Below are positions 1 to 44,521 of a stretch of 64,000 nt of DNA, piece after piece. Numbering within the stretch: position 1 is the first letter of the stretch; each line of letters starts with the position of its first letter. Below the pieces are notes generated by a model. It did no database searches and had not been told where the DNA came from. It saw nothing but the letters and a program-made list of their open reading frames with translations. Both the position numbers and the translations under genes were made by a program. The DNA comes from Lactiplantibacillus xiangfangensis (GTDB lineage Bacteria > Bacillota > Bacilli > Lactobacillales > Lactobacillaceae): assembly GCF_001438845.1 (NCBI RefSeq), contig NZ_JQCL01000080.1, forward strand, positions 162,073 to 226,072. The letters are read 5' to 3'.

Positions 1-2946
1 ACAAAGCTCACCACATTGGACACGAGTGGTTGGGGTCTTGGCAATTTGCAAAATGCCTACGCGATGTTTAATGGGGATCAAGCATTGGTCATGTTAGATA
101 CCAGTCATTGGAATCTGAGTAACGTGACGCAATCTCATTTTATGTTTGCTAATGATGTTAGTTTGACTAACCTAGATACATCGCAGTGGGGGCTCGGAAA
201 AGATACCAACACGCAGGAAATGTTTGCCGGTGATGTGGCACTAACAACGTTGGGGCAAACTAATTGGGATTTGAATCAAGTTACGGATGCTAGTGACATG
301 TTTAATAATGACCCTCTTTTGGCCAGCTTGAATACGAAGGATTGGGCGATTAATGGTCCCATCAACGTGACTAAGATGTTTACCTGTGATACAAGTTTAA
401 AGACCCTTGATTTATCAAACTGGGATTTGAGTTCGGCGACGGCAATTACAGATATGTTACTTGGTACACCAACTTTACAAGAACTGAAATTAGGTTCCAA
501 AGTGGCATTTTTAACGAGTGACCAAAGTGCGGTAATTGGCGATGCGCCGTTAAATGATACTTACACTGGTAAGTGGATCAATACGACGGGACAAACGTTC
601 ACGGCAGCCGAATTGATGCAACTATACAACGATACGTCTACGGCGGTAGCGGATACTTACGTTTGGCAAAAGGATCAGACAAACGTTACTGTGCGTGATT
701 CCGTGGTTGACCAGAGTGGCCAAAACACTTGGAGCGCTGCGGATAATTTTGACAGCGCAACGGATGCTAACGGACTTTCTGTGACAGTTACTGATAGTAC
801 CGTTACTGGGCAAGTCGATACCACGATTCCGGGGACCTATCAGGTGACTTACAGCATTTTAAATGCGGCTGGAAACGTCGTTAAGGCTATTGCAACCGTC
901 AAAGTGGTTGCTAGTCAGGTTTCAGTGGCTGCCCATGATACGACGGTGATGCAGGGTCAAGCTTGGCAAGTTGCGGATACTTTTGATTCAGCCACTGATT
1001 TTGAGGGCCAGCCGGTTGATTTTAGTCAGGTAGTGGTAACCGGTGCGGACCAAGTTGAAACTAAGACACCGGGAACGTATGATGTGACCTATCGTTATAC
1101 TGATAGCCGAGGCAATGTCGCAACTAAGATTATTATGGTCACGGTAACGCCTAGTCAGGTGGCCGTAACGGCTAAAAACATGACGGTAATGCAGGGTCAA
1201 ACGTGGCAGGCTGCGGATGCTTTCGTTAACGCCAGTGATGCCACTGGTCAATCGGTCGCGTTAAGTGCTGTAAAAGTCACTGGAGCGGTTGACACGCAGA
1301 CGCCGGGACAATATCAGGTCATCTATCGTTACACGGACGCTTATGGGAACCAAGCTAGTCAAGTTGCAACGATTACGGTTGAAAAGTCGGCCGTCGCAAT
1401 TGCGGCAAACGACGTCACGGTGATGCAAGGTCAACCATGGACGTCCGCTGAATCCTTTGTGAGTGCGACAGATGCTAATGGTGATCCGGTTGACCTTTCA
1501 GCGGTGACGGTCACGGGTGCGGATGCCGTTGATACTAAGACGGCTGGTCGCTATCCGGTGACTTACAGTTATATGGATAAGTATGGTAATCAAGCTAGCA
1601 AAGTTGTCACGGTGGTCGTTAAAAAGTCGGCCGTTGCAATTGAAGCTAACGGGATGACAATTATGCAAAACCAGTCATGGACACCCGCTGACGCATTTGT
1701 TAGTGCGAACGATGCCAATGGTCAGCCCGTTGCGTTTAGCCAGGTCACGGTAGTCGGTGCGAACCGAGTAGCAATCCAGACACCGGGAAGTTATGAACTG
1801 ACTTATCGTTACACAGATGCTTACGGCAATACTGCCAGCAAGAACGTTGTGCTCACGGTTAAAGCCAGTCAAGTGGCTGTGGTTGCAAACGATACTAGCC
1901 TCATGCAAGGTCAGTCCTGGGCAGCGGCCGATAGCTTTGTGAGCGCGACGGATGCGCAGGGGCAGTTAGTTCAGTTGAACAAGGTCGTTGTCAGTGGTGA
2001 AAAGCAAGTCACTACGACCGTTCCTGGTGTTTACCGGGTCACTTATCGCAACACGGATATTTACGGTAACGTGGCTACTAAGACGATTACAGTTACGATT
2101 AAAGCTAGTCAGGTTGCAATCGATGCGAAGAACGTGACGTTGACACAAGGCCAAGCTTGGACGCCTGCTGATAGTTTTGTGAGTGCTCATACTGCTGACG
2201 GTCAGACGTTAGACTTTAAACAAGTTAGTGTTCTGGGTGCCGACCAAGTCAATGTCAAGGTGCCCGGGACTTACGCGGTTACTTATCGAGCGACTGACAG
2301 CTATGGTAATTCGGTGCAAAAGACCATTCTTGTTACCGTCAAAGCCAGTCAATTAGGACTAACTGTTAAAAATATGACGGTCAAGCAAGGTACGGCTTGG
2401 ACGGCTGCTGACGCGTTGGTCAGTGCAACCGATGCAGCTGGTCAGGCAGTTGGGTTAACACAGCTCAAAGTGATAGGAACGGTTGACACATCTAAAGTAG
2501 GCAGCTACCCCGTACGTTATCAGAATACGGATATTTACAGTAATCAGATTGAGCGGACCGCGATGATCACGGTGACGCCGACTAGCCTTAACCATAGTGC
2601 AAGTAAACCGAATAAGTCCCAACCAATTGTTGAACCAGGTCAAGCGGCGGTGGTGAAATCCGCCAAAACACCGACTAGATCAAACCGGTCAATCAGTACT
2701 CGGACCAATGCTAAGCAGAATTCAGTTGAGACGGATCAAGCGGCCGTCATTGCTAAAGTGGAAACGACTAAGCAGCCTACGAGTAAACTGGGAGAAACTC
2801 ATTCAAAAGCACACGCTAAGGCGGCTAAAGCAACTAGTCTGCCACAGACTGGTGAAAGTTCAGCAAATGGTGCGGCTGCTTTAGGGGCGCTAGCAATCAG
2901 TTTTACCGGGTTGCTAAGTTTCTTCAACAAGAAACGGCGGAATTAA
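1..2946 (+). CDS. LPXTG cell-wall-anchored adhesin with DUF285 and Ig-like repeats (5' partial)
   Basis: The reading frame is open from base 1 (T-K-L-T-T-L-D-T-S-G-W), so the gene begins upstream and only its C-terminal ~981 residues are here. The first ~180 residues are leucine/tryptophan-rich repeats of the type LDTSxWxL...MF, the DUF285 (BspA-like/mycoplasma surface) family. Then come eight Ig-like repeats of about 80 residues, most beginning near TVMQGQxW and ending GTYxVTYxYTDxxGN. The end is a cell-wall sorting signal: LPQTGE, a hydrophobic stretch and KKRRN. Sortase A should anchor it to peptidoglycan. A Lys/Thr-rich linker precedes the signal. It is a paralogue of the adhesin at 22667-27643. 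Role in adhesion is inferred from architecture; the ligand is unknown. Confidence 0.93.
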   Translation, partial: TKLTTLDTSGWGLGNLQNAYAMFNGDQALVMLDTSHWNLSNVTQSHFMFANDVSLTNLDTSQWGLGKDTNTQEMFAGDVALTTLGQTNWDLNQVTDASDMFNNDPLLASLNTKDWAINGPINVTKMFTCDTSLKTLDLSNWDLSSATAITDMLLGTPTLQELKLGSKVAFLTSDQSAVIGDAPLNDTYTGKWINTTGQTFTAAELMQLYNDTSTAVADTYVWQKDQTNVTVRDSVVDQSGQNTWSAADNFDSATDANGLSVTVTDSTVTGQVDTTIPGTYQVTYSILNAAGNVVKAIATVKVVASQVSVAAHDTTVMQGQAWQVADTFDSATDFEGQPVDFSQVVVTGADQVETKTPGTYDVTYRYTDSRGNVATKIIMVTVTPSQVAVTAKNMTVMQGQTWQAADAFVNASDATGQSVALSAVKVTGAVDTQTPGQYQVIYRYTDAYGNQASQVATITVEKSAVAIAANDVTVMQGQPWTSAESFVSATDANGDPVDLSAVTVTGADAVDTKTAGRYPVTYSYMDKYGNQASKVVTVVVKKSAVAIEANGMTIMQNQSWTPADAFVSANDANGQPVAFSQVTVVGANRVAIQTPGSYELTYRYTDAYGNTASKNVVLTVKASQVAVVANDTSLMQGQSWAAADSFVSATDAQGQLVQLNKVVVSGEKQVTTTVPGVYRVTYRNTDIYGNVATKTITVTIKASQVAIDAKNVTLTQGQAWTPADSFVSAHTADGQTLDFKQVSVLGADQVNVKVPGTYAVTYRATDSYGNSVQKTILVTVKASQLGLTVKNMTVKQGTAWTAADALVSATDAAGQAVGLTQLKVIGTVDTSKVGSYPVRYQNTDIYSNQIERTAMITVTPTSLNHSASKPNKSQPIVEPGQAAVVKSAKTPTRSNRSISTRTNAKQNSVETDQAAVIAKVETTKQPTSKLGETHSKAHAKAAKATSLPQTGESSANGAAALGALAISFTGLLSFFNKKRRN

Positions 2947-2974
2947 AAAGTAAGACTACGTTTAGCTAAGACTT

Positions 2975-3024
2975 AAAAAAGGTAGTTCCGAGAAATCATT
3001 TGAGTTCTCGGAACTACCTTTTTT
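2975..3024 (+). terminator. Intrinsic terminator of the adhesin gene
   Basis: Two perfectly complementary 20-base arms (2975-2994 and 3005-3024), the distal one ending in six T. The core GGTAGTTC is shared with the terminator of the second adhesin at 27754-27802. Confidence 0.93.
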
Positions 3025-3124
3025 ATGCCCGTCAGCCTAACCTTGAGGGCTTTTAGAAAAATACCAAATCGAGCCGAGATTTTAGTGGAACGACTGAGTG
3101 ACTGGGGAGACATTCCACTTGACT

Positions 3125-3178
3125 AATGTACGTAATAAAGCACAATTTGAGTATATCAAGTACGAATTTAAGTACATT
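3125..3178 (+). promoter_or_regulatory. YefM-type operator candidate
   Basis: AATGTACG at 3125-3132 faces AAGTACATT at 3170-3178, with a further AAGTAC at 3158-3163. YefM-family antitoxins bind palindromes with a TGTACA core, so repeated half-sites just ahead of a yefM-like gene fit autoregulation. No convincing -35/-10 pair was found. Confidence 0.45.
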
Positions 3179-3191
3179 GGAGGCGCAGATT

Positions 3192-3461
3192 ATGGAAGCA
3201 ACGACTTTTAGTGATTTTCGGAAAGAACTCAAGAGCTACATGGATAAGGCCACTGATGACTTTGAGCCGGTGACGATTACTCGCAAAAATCGCCGAAATG
3301 CGGTTTTAATTTCGGAAGCGGAATATAACAATCTGGTAGAAAACCAATATATTCTCAGTAACCCAGCAAACTTAGCATGGTTGCAGCAGTCATTGGATCA
3401 GGCTAAGCATGGGAAAATGGAACAGCATGAATTGGTGGAGCCAGTCGATGGCAATGAATAA
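3192..3461 (+). CDS. YefM/Phd-family antitoxin without an adjacent toxin
   Basis: 89 residues from ATG 3192, chosen because GGAGG at 3178-3182 is correctly spaced; an upstream in-frame ATG at 3126 has no such site and lies in the operator-like repeats. The N-terminus (MEATTFSDFRKELKSYMDKA) and the segment VTITRKNRRNAVLISEAEYNNL are typical of the YefM/Phd DNA-binding fold; the C-terminal part (SPANLAW-like, then SLDQAKHGK) matches the toxin-binding tail of YefM. In classical loci YoeB follows within a few bases. Here a terminator follows directly and the next gene is convergent ponA, so no toxin is encoded. It may be a solitary regulator or a remnant of a TA pair. Confidence 0.85.
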   Translation: MEATTFSDFRKELKSYMDKATDDFEPVTITRKNRRNAVLISEAEYNNLVENQYILSNPANLAWLQQSLDQAKHGKMEQHELVEPVDGNE

Positions 3462-3473
3462 TGTGGTAATAAA

Positions 3474-3508
3474 AAAATGGCGGCTTGCAATTTGCAAGTC
3501 GTCATTTT
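3474..3508. terminator. Bidirectional terminator between yefM-like gene and ponA
   Basis: AAAATGGCGGCTTGCAA pairs with TTGCAAGTCGTCATTTT using two G-U pairs; A-tract on one side and T-tract on the other serve both convergent genes. Confidence 0.85.
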
Positions 3509-3515
3509 GGGCTCA

Positions 3516-5819
3516 TTAGTTATTTTCTTGGTGATCATTGTTGGTGTCAGTAGCGGGTTTCTCAGCTGAACTAGATTCCGAAGAGGCTTCTGAGCTAGAA
3601 GATTCTTCGTGGCTGCTTTCCGCACTACTGCTTTCTTCAGAAGACGATTCTTTTGAAGATTCCTCAGAGGATGATTCCTTTGAAGATTCAGAGGATGATT
3701 CTTCGTGACTACTGCTACTTTCTTTTTCAGCCGAACTAGAAACGGCTGATGAGCTAACGTTGTTCTTGCTGGACGTTCCTGAAGCGGCCTCCGAGTTCGA
3801 GAAGAGGTGACCGACAACGTAAAGTTCTTCGATGCCGTTCTTCTTAACCGTCCCAACGGAACTAGGTTTGCTCCAGTCAGAGTTAGGTGAGTGTTCCTGC
3901 AAGTAAGTCATCATTTCACGGTAAATATCTTGTGAAATTTTCGACGTCGTGTTGTCAATATAGTTGACCTTTGAGAAGTCACCAGGAGTATCATAACCCG
4001 TCCAAACACTGACGGAATAGTTCTTAGTGTAACCAGCCATCCAAGAATCGGGTTCAGCGTCTGACGGCACCTTATCCTTATACTTATCTTCATAATTACT
4101 TGTCCCGGTCTTACCAGCTTGATAAACGCCGCCGATCTTAGCCGTGGTCCCAGTCCCAGTGGCGCTGTTAATCACGCCCTTGAGCATGTCAGTAATAATA
4201 TAAGCGGTCGATTGTTTCATGACCCGGATCCCAGTACTATCGAAATTGGTCGTCTTGTTATCTGGTGTAACGATCTTGTTAATGTAGTACGGCTTATGGT
4301 AAGTCCCGCCGTTAGCAAAAGCGGCGTACGCGCCGGCAACTTGCAGGGATGAAACCTCAGCCCCAATCGCGTTAGAGTAAACGACGTGGTCCAAGCCCAT
4401 CCCTAAACTGTTGGCGAATTCCTTAGCACGTGTCACACCGACGGCTTCGAGGGTCCGAACGGCTGGAATATTCCGTGATTGGACGAGGGCTTGACGCATG
4501 GTCATGTTGCCCAAGTGCCGGTTATCAAAGTCATTGACCGTAATGTCAGTACCGGGGTACTTGTATTTCGTATCAGCGACGGTCTTGTACGTTGGCCAGC
4601 TATCATATTCGATTGCAGGACCGTAATCCAAGATTGGTTTCATCGTTGAAGCGTTCGAGCGGTCTTTTTGGACGGCGCGGTTCAACCCGTAGGTCACGTC
4701 CGTATGTTTCCGACCACCAATCATTGCGGAAATTTTCCCGGTATACGAATCAACCACGGAAACCCCTAATTGGAAACGGTTGTTGGGGTAGTTGACGTAT
4801 TTAGAAGTGTTCGCAATGTCAAACAAACGCTGTTGGGCGTTCATGTTCAAGTTGGTGTAGACCTTAAGGTTATCGGTTGCAGGATCGTAACCTTTTTTGA
4901 CTAGGTCCTTTTTAACTTCCGTGATATAGGCATCGGCGACCTTGCTCTTATATTCCTGAGCGGCCAGTGACTTTTGCCCCGCGGATGAAAGGCCAGACTT
5001 AATGTTAACGTTCATTGCAGCCGTTTCTTGTTCCTTAGTAATGGCTTTGTTGTCGTACATTGCTTGTAGGACCAAGTCACGCCGACTTTTAGCGTAAGCG
5101 GGGTAGGCGGTTGGATCGTAGTAAGTTGGGGATTGTGGCATCCCAGCAAGCAGGGCTAATTGACTCAAGTTGAGGTCTTTTAGTGACTTGTTGTAGTAAT
5201 ACTGTGCCGCAGTTCCCATCCCGTAGACGCCGTTACCCATGTAGACCTTGTTGACGTAAAATTCCAAAATCTGGGATTTGCTGAAATGTTTTTCAACGTT
5301 TAAGGCTAACCAAGCTTCCTGCGCTTTGACCCTTAGATTTCGGTCGGAAGTTTTGGTTGAAAAGACTGACAATTTAACGAGTTGCATCGTCAGCGTACTC
5401 CCACCTTGCATACCGAGGGAACTCCCTTTTAGGTTTCCGAGGGCGGCCCCTAAGATCCGGGTGTAATCGACCCCCTTATGCTTATAGAAACGCCGGTCTT
5501 CAATGGAAACGACCGCGCTCTTGAGCGTATCGGGGATTTGATTAGATTTAACGTATTTGCGACTGTTAGCGCCCAGGTCAACGATTAACTTACCGTTTGA
5601 ATCGTAAAGGCGGGTCGAAGGTTCCCCCTGCATTTTAGCTTCGGAAATTGACGGTGAGGTTTGAGCGTAATAAAAGAACAACCCGACCCCTGATAAGATG
5701 CCAATCACAAACAGTGCTAATAACGTCAAAATTATCCGCCGAAACCAATGCTTCTTCGGTGGTTGGGTTTGGTTCTTATTGCGAGCCACCCGTGAGTTTT
5801 GTTCATTGTTACCTGCCAT
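3516..5819 (-). CDS. ponA: Bifunctional class A penicillin-binding protein (PBP1A/2A type)
   Basis: 767 residues. The order is a basic cytoplasmic tail, one membrane anchor (~26-52), a GT51 glycosyltransferase domain with EDRRFYKHKGVD (~107) and GGSTLTMQLVK (~139), then a transpeptidase domain with active-site STMK (Ser391), SRN and KTGTS (Lys570). It polymerises and cross-links peptidoglycan on the outer face of the membrane. The last ~90 residues are an unusual low-complexity tail made almost only of Ser and Glu, presumably extending into the wall. It lies 11 bases downstream of recU on the same strand, the recU-ponA pairing of Bacillota. GpsB, a known partner of class A PBPs, is encoded nearby. 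The name follows B. subtilis; the L. plantarum label would be pbp1A or pbp2A. Confidence 0.96.
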   Translation of the reverse strand: MAGNNEQNSRVARNKNQTQPPKKHWFRRIILTLLALFVIGILSGVGLFFYYAQTSPSISEAKMQGEPSTRLYDSNGKLIVDLGANSRKYVKSNQIPDTLKSAVVSIEDRRFYKHKGVDYTRILGAALGNLKGSSLGMQGGSTLTMQLVKLSVFSTKTSDRNLRVKAQEAWLALNVEKHFSKSQILEFYVNKVYMGNGVYGMGTAAQYYYNKSLKDLNLSQLALLAGMPQSPTYYDPTAYPAYAKSRRDLVLQAMYDNKAITKEQETAAMNVNIKSGLSSAGQKSLAAQEYKSKVADAYITEVKKDLVKKGYDPATDNLKVYTNLNMNAQQRLFDIANTSKYVNYPNNRFQLGVSVVDSYTGKISAMIGGRKHTDVTYGLNRAVQKDRSNASTMKPILDYGPAIEYDSWPTYKTVADTKYKYPGTDITVNDFDNRHLGNMTMRQALVQSRNIPAVRTLEAVGVTRAKEFANSLGMGLDHVVYSNAIGAEVSSLQVAGAYAAFANGGTYHKPYYINKIVTPDNKTTNFDSTGIRVMKQSTAYIITDMLKGVINSATGTGTTAKIGGVYQAGKTGTSNYEDKYKDKVPSDAEPDSWMAGYTKNYSVSVWTGYDTPGDFSKVNYIDNTTSKISQDIYREMMTYLQEHSPNSDWSKPSSVGTVKKNGIEELYVVGHLFSNSEAASGTSSKNNVSSSAVSSSAEKESSSSHEESSSESSKESSSEESSKESSSEESSSAESSHEESSSSEASSESSSAEKPATDTNNDHQENN

Positions 5820-5830
5820 GATGTTCTCCT

Positions 5831-6454
5831 TTAATGACTTGATGAGTCTTCATCAATGATGTTATCAATCGCATCCAAGTAAGGAATGAGGGGATTGATA
5901 TGGTACTTCAGCTCCGCGGCCTGCTGCTCAATGTCCGTGAGTGGAATTGATTTGCGACCCCCGTCTTGCTGGTGATCCCAATAAGTAAACAGGTCAGTTG
6001 CTTTCAATAGAAATAGGCGATCCAAACTAGCAAAACGGATGATAACAAAACAAATTCCGCCCTGGTGTAAACACTGGCGCATGTGTTCAATTTGGTGCTC
6101 ATGAAAGTTTTTGAGTGGAAAGGCCGTTTTGCTTTTCGTCTCCTTAGCTTCAAAATCTAAGTACTTACCGCGGTAAACCCCGTTGTAGTCGGTCGTGGAA
6201 GCGTGTTTGAAGTACGCTTCTTTAATAACGGCGGCGCTACGGTTGGGGTAGTCAACTTTGACGATTTGAATCGGGGTTGGCTTCTTATGAATAACTGCGA
6301 TTTCATGTTCTAGATAGTAAGTATTGCTATCATTGATTTCTTCTTCTAAACTCATTCCCCGGTCGCCAAAGTTTGTATTGGCAAACTTGGAAGGTTTTGA
6401 TTTTGAATGGCTAGGTTGGCGATAGACTTTACCGTTTGGATAGCGAATCGTCAC
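5831..6454 (-). CDS. recU: Holliday junction resolvase RecU
   Basis: 207 residues from a GTG start at 6454 (V-T-I-R-Y-P-N-G-K). AGGAGG, complementary to 6464-6469, is 9 bases away. The open frame extends a further 53 codons upstream, but that part resembles no RecU and lies before the ribosome binding site, so it is excluded. Family features seen: the NRG-like FGDRGMSLEEEINDSN segment, TTDYNGVYRGKYLDFEAKET (nuclease core with D, E and K) and FPLKNFHEHQIEHM. RecU cleaves Holliday junctions during recombination and chromosome segregation. It is first in an operon with ponA and divergent from ypsA, with 267 bases between the two starts. Confidence 0.96.
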   Translation of the reverse strand: MTIRYPNGKVYRQPSHSKSKPSKFANTNFGDRGMSLEEEINDSNTYYLEHEIAVIHKKPTPIQIVKVDYPNRSAAVIKEAYFKHASTTDYNGVYRGKYLDFEAKETKSKTAFPLKNFHEHQIEHMRQCLHQGGICFVIIRFASLDRLFLLKATDLFTYWDHQQDGGRKSIPLTDIEQQAAELKYHINPLIPYLDAIDNIIDEDSSSH

Positions 6455-6721
6455 ATTAATCAACCTCCTAATAATGTAATATTTTACCATTATTAGGCTT
6501 AATGTGAAACCAATCAAACGTAGCGCGGCGTTTAAGGGCCGGGCAACGCGCACAAAAAGTGACGAATTAAGGTTTCTGGGGATGCGATCACGGAATTTGT
6601 AAGGCGAACTCACAGTTGATTAGAGGGAAAGGCGGGGGGCAATCGCTAAACTGGTCGGCGCGTTCTTTGTGCGGTAAAATTGATATCATAAGATATGGTA
6701 AAGATGGAAAGGGGTCTGGTT

Positions 6722-35546: not shown

Positions 35547-35996
35547 ATGTGGATTTATTGGGTATTAATGTTTGTACTGGTCATCGTTGACCAGGTAATT
35601 AAGTCAGCCATCGTGGGCCATATTGCACTAGGCGCAAGTATTAGTATTGTGCCGGGCTTACTGTCTTTGACGAACTTACATAATAGCGGTGCCGCTTGGA
35701 GTATCTTACAGGGAAAGATGAGTTTCTTTTACCTGATTTCAGTCGTCGCACTAGGTGTGATGGTGTATTTGCTATGGCGGCTTCGGCAGCGTCGTTTGTA
35801 TGAATTCGGGATTGTCCTCATGATTGCCGGGACTTTAGGCAACTTCATTGACCGGATTCGTATCGGTTACGTGGTGGACATGTTCCAATTAGACTTTATC
35901 AATTTTCCAATCTTTAACTTTGCGGACCTATGCTTAACGGTAGGCGTTGTTTTGATTTTGATTGGTGTTTTGCGGGATGATAGTTTTGACAAATAA
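35547..35996 (+). CDS. lspA: Lipoprotein signal peptidase (signal peptidase II)
   Basis: 149 residues with four membrane helices. Conserved boxes are seen: VDQVIK near the N-terminus, NSGAAWSIL, GTLGNFIDRIRIGYVVDMF with the first catalytic Asp, and FPIFNFADLCLTVG with the second. It removes signal peptides from diacylglyceryl-modified prolipoproteins in the membrane. It overlaps the next gene, the lspA-rluD pairing seen in many Bacillota. Confidence 0.97.
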   Translation: MWIYWVLMFVLVIVDQVIKSAIVGHIALGASISIVPGLLSLTNLHNSGAAWSILQGKMSFFYLISVVALGVMVYLLWRLRQRRLYEFGIVLMIAGTLGNFIDRIRIGYVVDMFQLDFINFPIFNFADLCLTVGVVLILIGVLRDDSFDK

Positions 35997-36933
35997 GGTA
36001 CGGGATGCGGCTGATTTAACGACCGCACAACAACAGTTTACGATTACAGATCAGAGCGGGCGCCTGGATAAAGTTTTAGCGGGACTACAGACGATTTGGA
36101 CGCGGTCGCAAGTGGATAAATTAATTAAGACGGACCAAGTGACGGTTAATGGTCAGCTGCAGGCTAGTAAGTATAAGGTCAAAGCGGGTGATCAGATTAC
36201 GGTGGCCGAACAAGTGGTTCAGTCAACGGAAATTGAACCCGAAGATATTCCACTTGACGTGGTGTACGAGGACGATGACGTGCTCGTCGTCAATAAGCCT
36301 CAGGGAATGGTTGTCCATCCCGCACCCGGGCATCCGGACCACACGCTAGTCAACGCGTTACTTTTCCATAGTCCGTTATCGACCATCAACGGCGAGTTTC
36401 GGCCGGGAATCGTTCACCGGATCGATAAGGATACATCTGGGTTACTGATGGTCGCAAAAAATGATCACGCGCACCGCTCACTAGCGGCACAATTAAAGGC
36501 CAAGACGAATCTCCGGGAGTACGTTGCCCTCGTCCACGGTGTGATCAAGGAAGATACGGGAACGGTCAACGCACCACTAGGTCGCTCACCAAAGGATCGC
36601 AAGAAGCAGGCCATTGTCGCTACCGGTCGTCCGGCGGTAACACATTTCAAGGTCTTAAAGCGGTATCAGCACTACACGTTGATCAGTTGTCGCTTGGAAA
36701 CGGGCCGTACCCACCAAATTCGGGTACATTTGCAGTCAATTGGGCACCCGTTAGTGGGCGATCCGCTGTACGGGCCTAAAAAGACGATCAAGGGTAAGGG
36801 GCAGTTTTTACACGCCCGCTTGTTAGGGTTCAAGCATCCGGTCACCGGGGAGCAGCTTACCTTTGAAGCACCGTTGCCACCGATTTTTAAAGCAACGCTT
36901 GACCGGCTTGACAAAACCGACTTGAATCATTAA
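35977..36933 (+). CDS. rluD: RluD-family 23S rRNA/tRNA pseudouridine synthase
   Basis: 318 residues from ATG 35977, which overlaps the lspA end by 20 bases; the ribosome binding site is weak, and the start could also be TTG 35986. An S4 RNA-binding domain (~20-75) precedes the catalytic domain with HRIDKDTSGLLMVAKN (catalytic Asp), then RTHQIRVHL and GHPLVGDPLYG. It isomerises uridines in structured RNA. YlyB-like members next to lspA are common; the exact position modified is unknown. Confidence 0.92.
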   Translation: MIVLTNKVRDAADLTTAQQQFTITDQSGRLDKVLAGLQTIWTRSQVDKLIKTDQVTVNGQLQASKYKVKAGDQITVAEQVVQSTEIEPEDIPLDVVYEDDDVLVVNKPQGMVVHPAPGHPDHTLVNALLFHSPLSTINGEFRPGIVHRIDKDTSGLLMVAKNDHAHRSLAAQLKAKTNLREYVALVHGVIKEDTGTVNAPLGRSPKDRKKQAIVATGRPAVTHFKVLKRYQHYTLISCRLETGRTHQIRVHLQSIGHPLVGDPLYGPKKTIKGKGQFLHARLLGFKHPVTGEQLTFEAPLPPIFKATLDRLDKTDLNH

Positions 36934-36945
36934 TCTAACAGTAAT

Positions 36946-37043
36946 GAGAGTCCTTTAATCCGGCCCTGCGAGACTGAAAGGCAAAACTGTTAACAATAAC
37001 TTTTCGTCGACGGTCGGGACATTGTGTCCGGCCGTCTTTCTTT
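36946..37043 (+). promoter_or_regulatory. PyrR-dependent attenuator upstream of pyrR
   Basis: 36946-36982 carries the PyrR binding-loop hallmark: AGTCCTTTAATCCGGCCCTG followed by CGAGACTGAAAGGC, like the anti-antiterminators of other pyr operons. A terminator hairpin follows at 37009-37043 (GACGGTCGGGACA with TGTCCGGCCGTC, then TTTCTTT). With UMP-bound PyrR, transcription should stop here. Read from sequence by analogy to known PyrR leaders. Confidence 0.82.
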
Positions 37044-37067: not shown

Positions 37068-37616
<549 letters not shown>

Positions 37617-37652: not shown

Positions 37653-38735
37653 ATGGCAGACCGCTATTTGATTCTTGAAGACGGCAGTGCCTACCTCGGT
37701 GAAGGCTTTGGCTCACCAGCGGTTTCAACTGGTGAAATCGTATTTAATACGAGTATGACGGGCTATCAAGAAATTATTACCAATCAAATTTATCATAACC
37801 AAATTATTGCTTTCACCCAACCTACCATCGGCAGTTACGGTATCAATCATGACAGCTACGAATCGATTTTGCCGACTGTCAAAGGGGTCGTTGTTCGTGA
37901 TGTGGCTAGTATTTCAACTAACCGGCAACGGCGCTGGTCGTTGGACCAATACTTGAAACAGCAAAATATTCCGGGTATCAGTCATATTGACACCCGCCAC
38001 TTGGCGAAACAGCTACGTGCCAGTGGGCCAATGAAGGCCAGTATTGTTGATGTGGCGGACGCGCACGCTTTTGACCAATTAGGGGCGACCGTTCTAACAA
38101 ACCAACAAGTTGCTGCGGTTGCAACACCAAAACCATTTCCTAACCCGGGAACGGGCTTGAACGTCGTGGTCGTTGACTTTGGGCTTAAGCACGGTATTTT
38201 ACGGGAACTCAGTAAACGGGCCTGCAACGTTACCGTGTTGCCCTATACCGCAACAACGGAAGAAATTATTAATTTAGATCCGGACGGGGTCATTTTGTCG
38301 ACTGGTCCGGGGAAACCCCAAGATTTACCGGACAGTGTTTTAACGATGATTCAAAACATCCAAAACCGGATTCCGTTATTTGCGATTGGTTTAGGTCACG
38401 AACTCTTTGCGATGGCGAACGGGGCTTCGATTATGAAGTTGTCACCAGAACATCACGGGGCCAATCATCCCATTCGTGAAGTGATTACGAACCAAATCAT
38501 TTACGCGTCACAGGGACAAGGATTTGCGGTTGATCCCGCAACGATTGATCGCAACAAGCTCATCACGACGTTTGTCGATTTGATTGATGGGACGATTCAG
38601 GGCTTACGTTTTCGTGACTTTCCGGCGTTCTCCGTTCAATTTTTCCCGGACGGGGCACCGGGTCCGACCGAAGTCCGCGATATCTTTGATGAATTTGTTG
38701 AATCAATGCAGCAAGCAAGGGGGCCAATTTGGTGA
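37653..38735 (+). CDS. Carbamoyl-phosphate synthase small-subunit homologue lacking the glutaminase triad
   Basis: 360 residues, full length for CarA, colinear from RYLILEDGSAYLGEGFG to the end. The N-terminal CPSase domain (~1-140) is well kept, including NTSMTGYQEIITN and GISHIDTRHLAKQLR. In the glutamine amidotransferase domain the nucleophile elbow G-I-C-L-G-H-Q reads A-I-G-L-G-H-E: Cys is Gly246. The catalytic His-Pro-Glu reads Phe331-Pro-Asp333. Glutamine hydrolysis is therefore not expected. AGAAGGGA precedes the ATG. It follows pyrR by 36 bases and its stop overlaps the next start (GTGA). Confidence 0.92.
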   Translation: MADRYLILEDGSAYLGEGFGSPAVSTGEIVFNTSMTGYQEIITNQIYHNQIIAFTQPTIGSYGINHDSYESILPTVKGVVVRDVASISTNRQRRWSLDQYLKQQNIPGISHIDTRHLAKQLRASGPMKASIVDVADAHAFDQLGATVLTNQQVAAVATPKPFPNPGTGLNVVVVDFGLKHGILRELSKRACNVTVLPYTATTEEIINLDPDGVILSTGPGKPQDLPDSVLTMIQNIQNRIPLFAIGLGHELFAMANGASIMKLSPEHHGANHPIREVITNQIIYASQGQGFAVDPATIDRNKLITTFVDLIDGTIQGLRFRDFPAFSVQFFPDGAPGPTEVRDIFDEFVESMQQARGPIW

Positions 38736-41293
38736 ATAATCAAGCGTTACAAAAGGTCCTCATCATCGGTGCTGGCCATAACGACATTGGGCGCGAAGGG
38801 CAACACGATGCGGCTGTGACCCAAATGGGATCGGCGATTCGTAAACTAGGGATTGCCGTAGTTTTAGTTGATAACAACGCTTACTCGGTTGCGGCTGAAA
38901 ATAATTTTGCGGATAAGGTCTACATTGAACCTTTGACGGTCGCTGCGTTGTCACGGGTGATTGAAACTGAACAACCGGACGCCCTAATTCCATCATTAGG
39001 TGGGATTCAATCGGTCAATCTGATTCAAGGACTAATTCGCAACAACGTGCTAAAAAATAATCAGGTACGGCTTTTGCAGTGGGACCAAGATACGGTCGAC
39101 ATGATTGTCAACCCGGCACTCATGAGTAACCGACTCAAAGCAATCGGTGAACCCGTGATTGCCTCGCAAGTTGTGGCTAGTGAACCGGAAGCCTTTGCGG
39201 TCGTCCGCAAAGTTGGTTTTCCAGTCATTGTGAAGTCGGTGGCGCCCCGAATTGAGGCCAGTCGCCAACTGTGTGAAGACGAAGACGATTTAGAGCGAGC
39301 GCTCAAGATGGGGTTCAAGGTCTCCGCTACGAAGCAGTGTATTGTGGAACAAAGTATTGTTGGTTATAAGGAACTGGAATTTGTGGCCGTTCGGGATCAG
39401 AAAGATACGGCCCTACTAATCAGCGGGATGGAAAATTTTGATCCGGTCGGGATTCATTCGGCGGATTCAATCGTGTTTGCGCCGACGCAAACCATCACGG
39501 ATCAGGAGTATCAGCAATTCCGGACCGCAACGTTAAAAATTATGCGAAATCTACGCATTGTCGGTAGTTGCCACGTGCAATTTGCATTGGACCCGACGAC
39601 GCAAAATTACTACGTTATTAAAGTGACGCCGTACTTTGACCGTACGATGGCCTTAACCGCCCGTGCCACGGGTTACCCACTGGCCCGGGTTGTTGCGAAC
39701 CTAATCGTTGGCATTAGTTTAGCGGAAGTTAAGTTGCCAAGTAATTACCGTAAGCAGACGGCTTTAATTGAACCCGTGCTCGACCACATTGTCTGCCGGA
39801 TCCCGGTTTGGCCGTTTAACGTCTTGAAAAAGGTCAGCCATCAACTCGACACGGTGACGGAATCAACTGGTTCCGTCATTGGGATTGGACGGTCGACGGA
39901 GGAAGCCTTGCTAAAAGGGCTCCGTTCGACAGATGAATCGCGTTACCACGTGATTGCAAATCAGCCACAAAATTACTCAGAAGGTGAGTTGATTCAACGG
40001 TTGATTCATCCCCAAGCTGGGCGCATGTTAATTTTGCTGGAAGCATTGAACCGGGGTTACCAGATTGATGAACTGTCAGAATTAACAAAGATTGACGCGT
40101 TTTATTTCTACAAATTGCGGCACATTATCGAAATCGAGCAAGCGTTGCGTGACCGACCATTTGACGTGCACGCGTTAGGCCGGGCCAAGTACTTTGGGTT
40201 TACCGACGAAGACGCAGCAGATGCTTGGCATAGTGACGTCGCCAAGGTTCGGCAGTTTGCCTTAGAAAATGAGATTCACGCGACCTTTAAAGAAGTCGAA
40301 CCCACGGCTGGTGAGTTTACTGAGCAGACGAACACCTACTATTCAACTTATGAATTTGATAACGAAAGCCAGCAACAATCGGGGCGGCGCGTTGTCGTTA
40401 TTGGGACGGGTGCAAACCGGATTGGGACCAACCATGGGAACGATTATTTAGTGTCGCAACTGCTGTTTTATTTAAAAAAGGCGGATTACGAACCGATTTT
40501 AATTAATGCAAATCCGAACAGTGTGTCGATGACCCCGCAACTGGCGTCTAAACGGTACATTGAACCGAAGCAGCATTCAGATATTTTGAATATTTTAGCA
40601 ATTGAAAAACCACTATTGATTTTTACCACGTACCACGATTACCGGTTGGGGCAAGAATTGCAGAAGGCCGGTCACCAAGTGATTCAAATCAATAACGATT
40701 TGCCACGCGAGCAGATTAAGACCAATGATTCGCCAGCGGTAGAAGTGATTACGGATGGTGTTGACGTGAGCGTCTTTGGCATCAGTGAAATTATTGCGGG
40801 TAACAATTTACGGTCAAACGTCCGCGGGTCGATTGCGGTCTTTCCAGTTCGGGATAAGGCTGAAAACCAAGCTATCAAAGCGCTCAACGAGGAAGTTAAG
40901 AAGCGTGTCTTGGCATTCGGTATTCCCGGGCTATACACGGTTCGCTTGGCTATCGCTGATGGACAGCTCCAATTAGCAACGGTCGAGCCGATGAGTATTG
41001 CAACCATGGCGTTGATCAGTAAGGCAAGTGGTTCGAGCGTGACCCGCTTGCTACTGCACGTTAAATTGGGCGAAGCGCTCAGCAAAGTGATGTACGATTA
41101 CCCGGACGTAAATCAACCGGGGCCCGTCTACGTTCAAGCGAATACGTTCCCGTATAATCAACTTCAGATTTATGACGAAGATGAAGTGACGGGAGAACCT
41201 GGGCACGCGACTGGGACCGTGATTGCACATGGTCAAACGTTAAAAGACGCGCTAGTCGCACTGAACGCGGGTAACGAGGATACTGATTTTTAA
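38732..41293 (+). CDS. Carbamoyl-phosphate synthase large-subunit homologue, catalytically degenerate and truncated
   Basis: 853 residues from GTG 38732, coupled to the previous stop (AAGGGGG upstream); CarB is normally ~1060. The N-terminal half is colinear with CarB, but the MGGSGGG loop reads P-R-I-E-A-S-R and the metal site E-M-N-P-R reads Lys297-V-Thr299-P-Tyr301. The middle helical domain is present. In the second half about 80-90 residues of the ATP-grasp domain are missing, including its glycine loop, and I-E-V-N-P-R reads A-T-V-E-P-M. It ends where the MGS-like allosteric domain should begin. A functional CPSase is very unlikely; the long open frame argues for a retained non-catalytic role. 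Confidence 0.92.
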   Translation: MNNQALQKVLIIGAGHNDIGREGQHDAAVTQMGSAIRKLGIAVVLVDNNAYSVAAENNFADKVYIEPLTVAALSRVIETEQPDALIPSLGGIQSVNLIQGLIRNNVLKNNQVRLLQWDQDTVDMIVNPALMSNRLKAIGEPVIASQVVASEPEAFAVVRKVGFPVIVKSVAPRIEASRQLCEDEDDLERALKMGFKVSATKQCIVEQSIVGYKELEFVAVRDQKDTALLISGMENFDPVGIHSADSIVFAPTQTITDQEYQQFRTATLKIMRNLRIVGSCHVQFALDPTTQNYYVIKVTPYFDRTMALTARATGYPLARVVANLIVGISLAEVKLPSNYRKQTALIEPVLDHIVCRIPVWPFNVLKKVSHQLDTVTESTGSVIGIGRSTEEALLKGLRSTDESRYHVIANQPQNYSEGELIQRLIHPQAGRMLILLEALNRGYQIDELSELTKIDAFYFYKLRHIIEIEQALRDRPFDVHALGRAKYFGFTDEDAADAWHSDVAKVRQFALENEIHATFKEVEPTAGEFTEQTNTYYSTYEFDNESQQQSGRRVVVIGTGANRIGTNHGNDYLVSQLLFYLKKADYEPILINANPNSVSMTPQLASKRYIEPKQHSDILNILAIEKPLLIFTTYHDYRLGQELQKAGHQVIQINNDLPREQIKTNDSPAVEVITDGVDVSVFGISEIIAGNNLRSNVRGSIAVFPVRDKAENQAIKALNEEVKKRVLAFGIPGLYTVRLAIADGQLQLATVEPMSIATMALISKASGSSVTRLLLHVKLGEALSKVMYDYPDVNQPGPVYVQANTFPYNQLQIYDEDEVTGEPGHATGTVIAHGQTLKDALVALNAGNEDTDF

Positions 41294-43240: not shown

Positions 43241-43825
43241 ATGGCAAAAGATGTTCGCAAAATTAAAACTGAACGTGATCTACAAAATGCGTTTTTATCA
43301 CTATTAACAACGAAGGGGTTTCGACAGCTAACCGTCGCGGATATTTGTCAGGCTTCGTTGACGAGTCGTTCGACTTTTTACGCGCATTACCTAGATAAGT
43401 ACGATTTGTTGGAGCAGATGGTCGCACATTACACTGCAATGTTTGCGCAACGCGTCAGTGTGCGTTTTCAGCAAATTATTGCGGGGCAAATTGACGACTT
43501 ATTGCACAGCTTATTAGCGGACATGGCGGAAAATCGACAGACGCTTCAGGTTTTGTTCACCGTGCACGAGCCAGATGCAGATCTCAAGGCGAATTTTTAC
43601 CAGTTACTTTATCGGCAATGGGAAACTTTTATCAAGAGTCAACCAGTGACACATCCGGTACCGGTGGATTTGATTGCCAGTATGGGAAGTAACGTTCAAA
43701 TGACTCTGATTGAATGGATCATTGAGCACGGAGAAAATAGCTTAGATGGTGTGGCGGAAGCGGTCAATACCATCCGTAAAGCAATCTTAATTCAGATTAA
43801 GGCGCCGGATGACCAGCTTAGCTAA
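43241..43825 (+). CDS. TetR/AcrR-family regulator
   Basis: 194 residues from ATG 43241 (GAGGGAG upstream). HTH: GFRQLTVADICQASLTSRSTFYAHYLDKYDLLEQM at ~30-64. C-terminal domain resembles the TetR_C-type of the DhaS/YxbF group. The divergent gene for a small Trp-rich membrane protein is the probable target, with the palindrome at 43144-43179 as operator. Convergent with the CAT-like gene. Confidence 0.92.
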   Translation: MAKDVRKIKTERDLQNAFLSLLTTKGFRQLTVADICQASLTSRSTFYAHYLDKYDLLEQMVAHYTAMFAQRVSVRFQQIIAGQIDDLLHSLLADMAENRQTLQVLFTVHEPDADLKANFYQLLYRQWETFIKSQPVTHPVPVDLIASMGSNVQMTLIEWIIEHGENSLDGVAEAVNTIRKAILIQIKAPDDQLS

Positions 43826-43828
43826 ACT

Positions 43829-43869
43829 AAAAAATGCGTTGAATCTTTTTTTGATTCAACGCATTTTTT
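43829..43869. terminator. Bidirectional terminator
   Basis: AAAAAATGCGTTGAATC and GATTCAACGCATTTTTT are perfect arms around seven T. It overlaps the stop codon of the CAT-like gene. Confidence 0.93.
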
Positions 43870-44521
43870 AGTTTAAATAAGTTTGTGGTGCGTTCAGTAG
43901 TGTTTGCAGTTCGTTAAAAAAGGTACTGACATGGTAACCATCCGCGGTAGCGTGATTGATGGTCAAGCTCAGCGGCATGGTTGTGTGTTCATGTTCACTT
44001 TTGAATTGTCCCGCCTGAAAGATGGGGAAAAAGGTGGTTAGGGGTTTAAATGGCAATGGCGTATAACTTGAAAAGTTAACCCACGGCAAGCTTCCGATGT
44101 TAACCAGATTAGCTGATTGGGGTGCTTTTGGCATGGGCCCCGGTTGTTGACCGTACTGTTGAAGGTCAGCTAGATAGTGCTGATAAAAGACCGTAAAGTC
44201 TTCATCATAAGCGGTCCACAAATTAGAAATTGAGTGGTCAGCGTGGATGACCGTATACGATGGGTGTAAAACGTCAAATGTCACCAGTTGTTCGTCGATA
44301 TAACCGATACGCATTTCAGGATGGTTAGTCAGTAACCGGCTGATCAGGTAAAGGTAGACCGCGTTGAATTTGACGTGATTAGTGCGGGTCCAGGCTAAGG
44401 TAGCGGTGATACCTAAATCGACGGTCAGTGAAAAGCCGGTGGGATTCATCTTGGTAAAGTAATAAAAGTATTGTTGGCGGGGCCAATTTTGTTGGTCAAT
44501 CACCGTGTAATGGTTATTCAT
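43868..44521 (-). CDS. Chloramphenicol acetyltransferase-like protein
   Basis: 217 residues from the ATG at 44521 (GGGAGG upstream). It follows the CAT fold throughout: WPRQQYFYYF at the start, FSLTVDLGITATLAWTR, and the active-site HxxxDG in INHATADGYHVSTFF near the end, so the catalytic His and Asp are kept. It probably acetylates a hydroxyl group using acetyl-CoA. Whether chloramphenicol is the substrate cannot be told; chromosomal CAT-like genes often have others. Third gene of an operon with the two genes upstream (gap 2 bases). Confidence 0.9.
   Translation of the reverse strand: MNNHYTVIDQQNWPRQQYFYYFTKMNPTGFSLTVDLGITATLAWTRTNHVKFNAVYLYLISRLLTNHPEMRIGYIDEQLVTFDVLHPSYTVIHADHSISNLWTAYDEDFTVFYQHYLADLQQYGQQPGPMPKAPQSANLVNIGSLPWVNFSSYTPLPFKPLTTFFPIFQAGQFKSEHEHTTMPLSLTINHATADGYHVSTFFNELQTLLNAPQTYLN

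Follow-up and report, generated by a model that had tools for sequence, protein, structure and literature searches.

The window, that is, the whole stretch of 64,000 nucleotides from Lactiplantibacillus xiangfangensis that was analysed, contains a row of five genes on the plus strand in the order lspA, rluD, pyrR, carA′ and carB′, of which the last two encode altered homologs of the small and large subunits of carbamoyl-phosphate synthetase (CPS). The features of the row are the following:

35547–35996, plus strand: lspA, signal peptidase II (TIGR00077, 108.9 bits, cut-off 73.95), a conserved left neighbour that marks the place of the pyr operon
35962–36933, plus strand: rluD, RluA/RluD-family pseudouridine synthase (TIGR00005, 333.9 bits, cut-off 192.7), a conserved left neighbour
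37009–37036, plus strand: hairpin resembling a terminator, located between rluD and pyrR2 (match to the consensus only)
37092–37616, plus strand: pyrR2, a second PyrR paralogue whose family score indicates an intact protein (NF003548, 274.9 bits, cut-off 218)
37653–38735, plus strand: carA′, CarA homolog of 360 aa without the glutaminase Cys and His (NF009475, 460.9 bits, cut-off 221)
38388–38390, plus strand: codon of Gly246, replacing the nucleophile Cys269 (alignment to E. coli CarA, codon check)
38400–38402, plus strand: codon of Glu250, replacing Gln273 (alignment to E. coli CarA, codon check)
38643–38645, plus strand: codon of Phe331, replacing the catalytic His353 (alignment to E. coli CarA, codon check)
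38649–38651, plus strand: codon of Asp333 at the place of Glu355, the usual third triad residue of the order and no loss
38729–41293, plus strand: carB′, CarB homolog of 854 aa with key residues altered in both ATP-grasp sites and with part of ATP-grasp 2 and the allosteric domain missing
39620–39622, plus strand: codon of Lys298 of carB′, replacing Glu299 of E. coli CarB (alignment to E. coli CarB, codon check)

The lspA and rluD genes also lay upstream in many related loci, and the order of the five genes is for the most part conserved. The region of the hairpin at 37009–37036 held 11 terminator-like sites against a mean of 6.0 in shuffled sequence, and no PyrR-type attenuator was found before pyrR2 in the window by Rfam at E values up to 1. 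Another contig of the same genome carries a canonical PyrR, CarA and CarB set (locus L090; the G000:C22 pair), with which the window proteins share 65% identity for PyrR2, 53% for CarA′ and 41% over the first half of CarB′. The closest named relative of the CarA′ protein was that of L. garii (99%). Elsewhere in the window, a strong hairpin at 43813–43885 gave hits to several miRNA models on both strands without reaching any cut-off, and it is probably a bidirectional terminator separating convergent genes.

By family score the carA′ product passes for a CPS small subunit, exceeding both cut-offs (NF009475, 460.9 versus 221 bits; TIGR01368, 366.7 versus 307.35 bits). Its residues were numbered on E. 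coli CarA (PDB chains 1c30/1bxr; MG1655 CarA), whose Cys269 and His353 are named as essential in a passage of a review of E. coli CPS (PMC6245113). A first-pass annotation of this DNA had described the whole glutaminase triad as replaced. The alignment and codon check bore this out for two of the three residues, the Cys of the elbow being Gly246 and the catalytic His being Phe331. At the third place, Glu355 corresponds to Asp333 and an acid is thus present. At the triad places, the genome's own live CarA carries Cys, His and Asp, and among the rows classed as live (those with Cys and His, some rows being one gene twice) the third residue was Asp in 54 of 61 and Glu in 7. Live CarA of the order thus usually has Asp here, and the description of Asp333 as a catalytic loss was mistaken. 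Three further replacements, which the first-pass annotation had not mentioned, affect presumed glutamine-binding positions of E. coli CarA, namely Ser47 (Ile46), Gln273 (Glu250) and Asn311 (Gly288).

These changes were examined in the window and the best 80 of 134 confirmed relative loci, referred to here as the closest set (n = 81). Gly occupied the Cys position in 81/81, and position 331 was Phe in 69, Ser in 12 and His in none, so the loss of Cys and His is not a matter of chance or sequencing error. Glu250 and Asp333 were each present in 81/81 of the same set. Among the 59 genomes with a window-type CarA′, Gly stood at the Cys position in 59/59 and His at position 353 in 0/59. Glu250 was not universal, Gln being kept at position 273 in G051, G157 and G217 (one genus; 3/35 sequences) and at locus L183. 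Because the essential Cys269 and His353 are both gone, the CarA′ pocket appears to have lost glutamine hydrolysis; the earlier conclusion to this effect thus holds, although its argument from three changed residues does not. The predicted CarA′ structure was moderate (pLDDT 75.0, pTM 0.57). In the overlay that had been proposed as a check, E. coli CarA chains were its best structural matches, but the whole protein superposed poorly on E. coli CarA (rmsd 8.6, TM 0.61), the domain arrangement being uncertain; the class-I amidotransferase part superposed at about 2.5–2.8 Å on several such proteins. Eight positions are conserved among CarA′ sequences but differ from live CarA, and no surface patch could be argued from them.

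The adjacent CarB′, whose catalytic loss was likewise absent from the first-pass annotation, has 854 aa versus 1058 in the canonical paralogue and fell under both large-subunit cut-offs (TIGR01369 and NF003671: 608.9 versus 1027 and 593.6 versus 599), the second narrowly. The pre-ATP-grasp, ATP-grasp 1 and oligomerisation domains are present; the second ATP-grasp region is short by about 85 residues, and the C-terminal allosteric domain is missing entirely. The key residues considered were E299/N301 and E841/N843 of E. coli CarB, which we take to be the metal ligands of the two ATP sites. In CarB′, Glu299 is Lys298 and Asn301 is Thr. Across 109 carB′ rows (some species twice; the shortest, 657 aa, clipped by a contig end), the Glu299 place held Lys in 98 and Arg in 11, and neither E299 with N301 nor E841 with N843 was kept together in any row (0/109 for each pair); all four residues were kept in 32/32 live CarB rows, save one Asp at 841. 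The predicted fold of CarB′ had a mean pLDDT of 81.5, a pTM of 0.85 and a TM score of 0.87 to E. coli CarB. Since the glutaminase nucleophile and base, key ATP-site residues and the allosteric domain are all gone, no carbamoyl phosphate would be expected from glutamine or from ammonia, and it is very likely that CarA′–CarB′ is devoid of CPS activity. Judged by these residues, carA′/carB′ is a pseudoenzyme pair derived from CPS and not an ammonia-using synthetase.

To follow the distribution of the pair, 80 genomes were chosen from 221 so that each of the family's 40 genus codes was represented, and some genomes with a single CarA match were deliberately included. Window-type CarA′ was found in 59 of these 80 genomes, from 21 genera, and for every one of them the active site was read residue by residue (24, 34 and the window, in two alignments). 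More diverged Gly forms occurred in 12 further genera, with lspA and rluD upstream in 12/12 loci and a full-length CarB (1054–1067 aa) in 7/12, which brings the Gly-for-Cys forms to 33 of the 40 sampled Lactobacillaceae genera. No Gly form was seen in the stretches fetched from g12, g13, g26, g30, g31, g32 and g34; in g12, g13, g26, g31, g32 and two g34 genomes, a live set stood behind rluD and pyrR, and behind lspA where the stretch reached that far. By gene order, the carA′B′ pair, mostly together with pyrR, occupies the chromosomal place of the live pyr operon of other genera. Because of this shared place, carA′B′ probably arose from the old pyr operon and stayed where that operon once stood.

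Several forms differ from that of the window. At L172 (G021, g22), a dead CarA accompanies a full-length CarB whose second ATP-grasp site is lost and whose first, the bicarbonate site, is live-like, with the same 17-residue pattern as the live CarB of the order; it is a possible half-reaction or sensor intermediate. A separate degenerate CPS was observed at L125 (G033, g34; CarA at 5461–6585 and CarB at 2240–5443, both on the minus strand). In its CarA the Cys is kept, but His353 is replaced by Leu and position 355 is Asn; the full-length CarB of the locus carries Ala at both the Glu299 and the Glu841 places. This pair perhaps represents another route to a pseudoenzyme.

Outside the family, Gly replaced Cys in 5 of 20 selected CarA genes (four of family f4, one of f2), and one of the four f4 forms keeps the His. 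Three f4 loci (L192, L206 and L210) showed the order pyrR, a pyrB-like gene, Gly-form carA and a short carB (583–585 aa), pyrB being confirmed in L192 only; their genomes had no other CarA match at E 1e-30. The f2 locus (L196, G229) carried a Gly-form CarA and a degenerate full-length CarB in what seemed by eye an ordinary pyr operon. A quick tree gave two live/dead changes and placed one dead row (L186) among live rows. In an AU test the one-clade tree was not rejected (p 0.583) and was 4.9 log units better. Two origins of the Cys-to-Gly change are disfavoured by this difference, and the placement of the f2 and f4 rows is unsure owing to long branches.

Substitution rates indicated that carA′ is under strong purifying selection and is not decaying. 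Within the genus, its median dN/dS was 0.011 and its maximum 0.034 (18 unsaturated pairs), and the window copy differed from that of L006 by a dN of 0.000 at a dS of 0.31. The corresponding medians were 0.051 for pyrR2 (7 pairs) and 0.009 for carB′, the latter from only 2 usable pairs. In 80/80 loci the carA′ frame ran without interruption for at least 352 residues. The window carA′ was 95% identical to both the G038 and the G071 copies, for which live carA was 93% and 85% identical. Outside the genus, identity was 63–74% for CarA′ and 34–44% for CarB′.

The pair was frequently, though not always, linked to pyrR. Among the 80 closest loci, carB′ followed carA′ in 80/80 and pyrR preceded carA′ in 72/80; in the other eight, from Paucilactobacillus, Limosilactobacillus and one Lactobacillus sp., pyrR was missing and carA′B′ stayed. 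By genome, pyrR adjoined carA′ in 50 of 59, lay elsewhere in 9 (all sampled members of g3 and g6) and was absent in none. The adjoining pyrR was the sole PyrR at E 1e-25 in 46/50 (46/59 genomes), and 41 of these 46 sole-PyrR genomes had a match to the PyrR-type RNA element RF00515 at E 0.001, five having none; the sole-PyrR and RF00515 counts were compiled by hand from separate genome searches. Over all 80 genomes, RF00515 was matched at E 0.001 in 72 and over the family cut-off in 43. Among the 12 diverged Gly-form loci, no pyrR was seen at L178, L181 and L182, and the genome that carries L182 (G017, 87% complete) showed no PyrR anywhere.

Where the RNA elements lie bears on how PyrR could act. 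In G016, pyrB-pyrC-carA and a frame the size of CarB lie downstream of an element, in a stretch that has no pyrR, and PyrR beside carA′B′ therefore acts in trans there, if at all. G053, which has no second CarA, has one element before an NCS2 uracil-permease-like gene (449.4 bits, under the model's 477) and another before a stretch with an NCS1 transporter. The window genome has an RF00515 element of 54 bits before an NCS2 uracil-permease-like gene (L280, G000:C53:127403-127518). At L186, L172, L173, L174 and L180, all diverged loci, pyrR and carA′ are separated by a gene that by eye resembles a uracil permease, that of L186 being confirmed as NCS2. CarA′ was the sole CarA at E 1e-40 in 18 of the 59 genomes (91–99% complete), a figure that demonstrates existence and not frequency, the genomes having been chosen partly for a single CarA; another CarA match, not read for residues in all cases, occurred in the other 41. 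The locus is also present in L. plantarum (L016), with 89% (PyrR), 96% (CarA′) and 88% (CarB′) identity to the window. From its locus rather than a locus tag, the window-type PyrR of L. plantarum is probably PyrR2.

Two explanations would make the pair either still a synthetase or nothing of use to the cell, and both are extremely improbable. An ammonia-dependent CPS, which has lost the glutaminase and kept the synthetase, has a precedent in human CPS1, in which, according to a passage of PMC4655335, Ser replaces the Cys and the glutaminase-like domain is inactive; the live-type pattern in the first ATP-grasp site of L172 also fits such an enzyme. The first-pass annotation had argued that loss of the Cys alone would suggest ammonia use and loss of the whole triad would not. 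CarA alone cannot decide this; the residues of CarB′ do make ammonia use very unlikely, Glu299 being Lys or Arg and the second site altered in 109/109 carB′ rows, and the second site being lost in L172 as well. CarB′ does not have the two intact phosphorylation domains that a CPS1-like enzyme would have. With part of ATP-grasp 2 and the allosteric domain missing, we reject this candidate. The same verdict applies to a decaying relic of the old pyr operon, retained only by its operon position. The lost domains and the location where other genera have a live pyr operon would suit a relic, but a carA′ dN/dS of about 0.01, open frames throughout and a slower change than that of live carA in 2/2 genome pairs speak against decay.

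A functional product could also be explained without PyrR. The pockets may have exchanged CPS chemistry for a different activity, on a nucleotide or an acyl phosphate for instance. Pocket positions are indeed kept, with Gly246 in 59/59 genomes, Glu250 and Asp333 in 81/81 of the closest set, and Lys or Arg at Glu299 in 109/109 carB′ rows. However, neither a new nucleophile nor a new metal cluster was noticed, Gln stands at the Glu250 place in 3/35 sequences and L183, and the second ATP-grasp region is short of some 85 residues; a new enzyme is thus unlikely. Still less credible is a non-catalytic subunit that joins or damps the live CPS of the same cell. The conservation of CarA′ above that of CarB′ outside the genus hints at an additional conserved partner of CarA′, and 41/59 genomes do have another CarA match. 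Against this, carA′ occurs in 18/59 genomes with no second CarA at E 1e-40 (a selected sample that speaks to existence only), which disfavours a role solely as partner of a live CPS.

The explanation that we prefer, with a probability of roughly one half, is that the pseudo-CPS heterodimer serves as a non-catalytic partner of PyrR-based control. It draws on the predicted catalytic loss, the constraint on carA′, the frequent linkage to PyrR and the persistence of the pair without a second CarA. In this view CarA′ and CarB′ would retain the fold and the pairing of CarA and CarB, and the complex would assist PyrR control over pyrimidine synthesis or uptake. It might bind PyrR, the RNA of PyrR or a metabolite such as bicarbonate, carbamoyl phosphate or a nucleotide, and might tune the action of PyrR at attenuators elsewhere in the genome. 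Several observations weigh against such a partnership. In 9/59 genomes and 8/80 loci, pyrR lies away from the locus and carA′B′ stays; three of the 12 diverged loci show no pyrR and G017 has no PyrR at all; five of the 46 sole-PyrR genomes are without RF00515, and only 43/80 genomes reach its cut-off. PyrR functions without a CPS partner in other bacteria. The moderate CarA′ model and the two pairs behind the carB′ dN/dS also count against it.

CPS uses bicarbonate, and a dead CPS beside PyrR2 would for this reason be a natural candidate for a sensor, which is a guess; the carA′B′ complex possibly senses bicarbonate or another metabolite. Only tentatively do we suggest the more specific, and rather doubtful, version in which CarA′–CarB′ is the missing sensor of PyrR2 control, binding bicarbonate, carbamoyl phosphate or ATP without turnover and signalling to PyrR. 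In a passage of PMC3582564, PyrR2 of L. plantarum is said to mediate the response to inorganic carbon. That system resembles the present one in having a second PyrR paralogue in the same genus at the same locus, and differs in that the passages on PyrR2 mention no dead CPS beside it. The gene numbering pyrR1-B-C-Aa1-Ab1 in part of another paper (PMC6044075) suggests that a second pyrAaAb pair is known.

Compared with CarAB/PyrAaAb of E. coli and the live pair of the same genome, carA′B′ retains the tandem carA-carB arrangement, the domain order of CarA and the pre-ATP-grasp, ATP-grasp 1 and oligomerisation domains of CarB. Unlike them, it lacks the glutaminase Cys and His, has key ATP-site residues replaced, misses ATP-grasp 2 in part and the allosteric domain wholly, and stands beside pyrR outside the biosynthetic operon. 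It shares with human CPS1 a glutaminase-like domain retained without the catalytic Cys, as a passage of PMC4655335 describes it. In contrast, CPS1 has Ser at that place and active phosphorylation domains; CarA′ also lacks the His, and its synthetase is, by sequence, dead. The E. coli trigger enzymes PyrH and PepA, pathway enzymes that act as regulators of carAB according to a passage of PMC6245113, offer a parallel of enzymes turned regulators, except that PyrH is an active enzyme whereas carA′B′ has lost its catalytic residues. Among the matches listed, none described a CPS devoid of catalysis next to PyrR in lactic acid bacteria, most subscription papers lying outside the search. We view carA′B′ as a pseudoenzyme of the CPS family.

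The locus presents a two-subunit biosynthetic enzyme with predicted catalytic loss in both subunits, a strongly constrained small subunit and a coupling to a regulator of the same pathway. Family scoring calls carA′ an active glutamine-hydrolysing CPS, at about twice the NF009475 cut-off, and genomes like the 18 with a single CarA may be wrongly credited with carbamoyl-phosphate synthesis. Forms that combine a dead CarA with a full-length CarB could show the path from enzyme to non-enzyme. For L. plantarum, carA′B′ is a testable candidate in the PyrR2 response to inorganic carbon. If the sensor proposal is true, an RNA-binding regulator would, across much of the Lactobacillaceae, have acquired an old metabolic enzyme as its metabolite receptor, with Gly-for-Cys relatives in two other families of the order.
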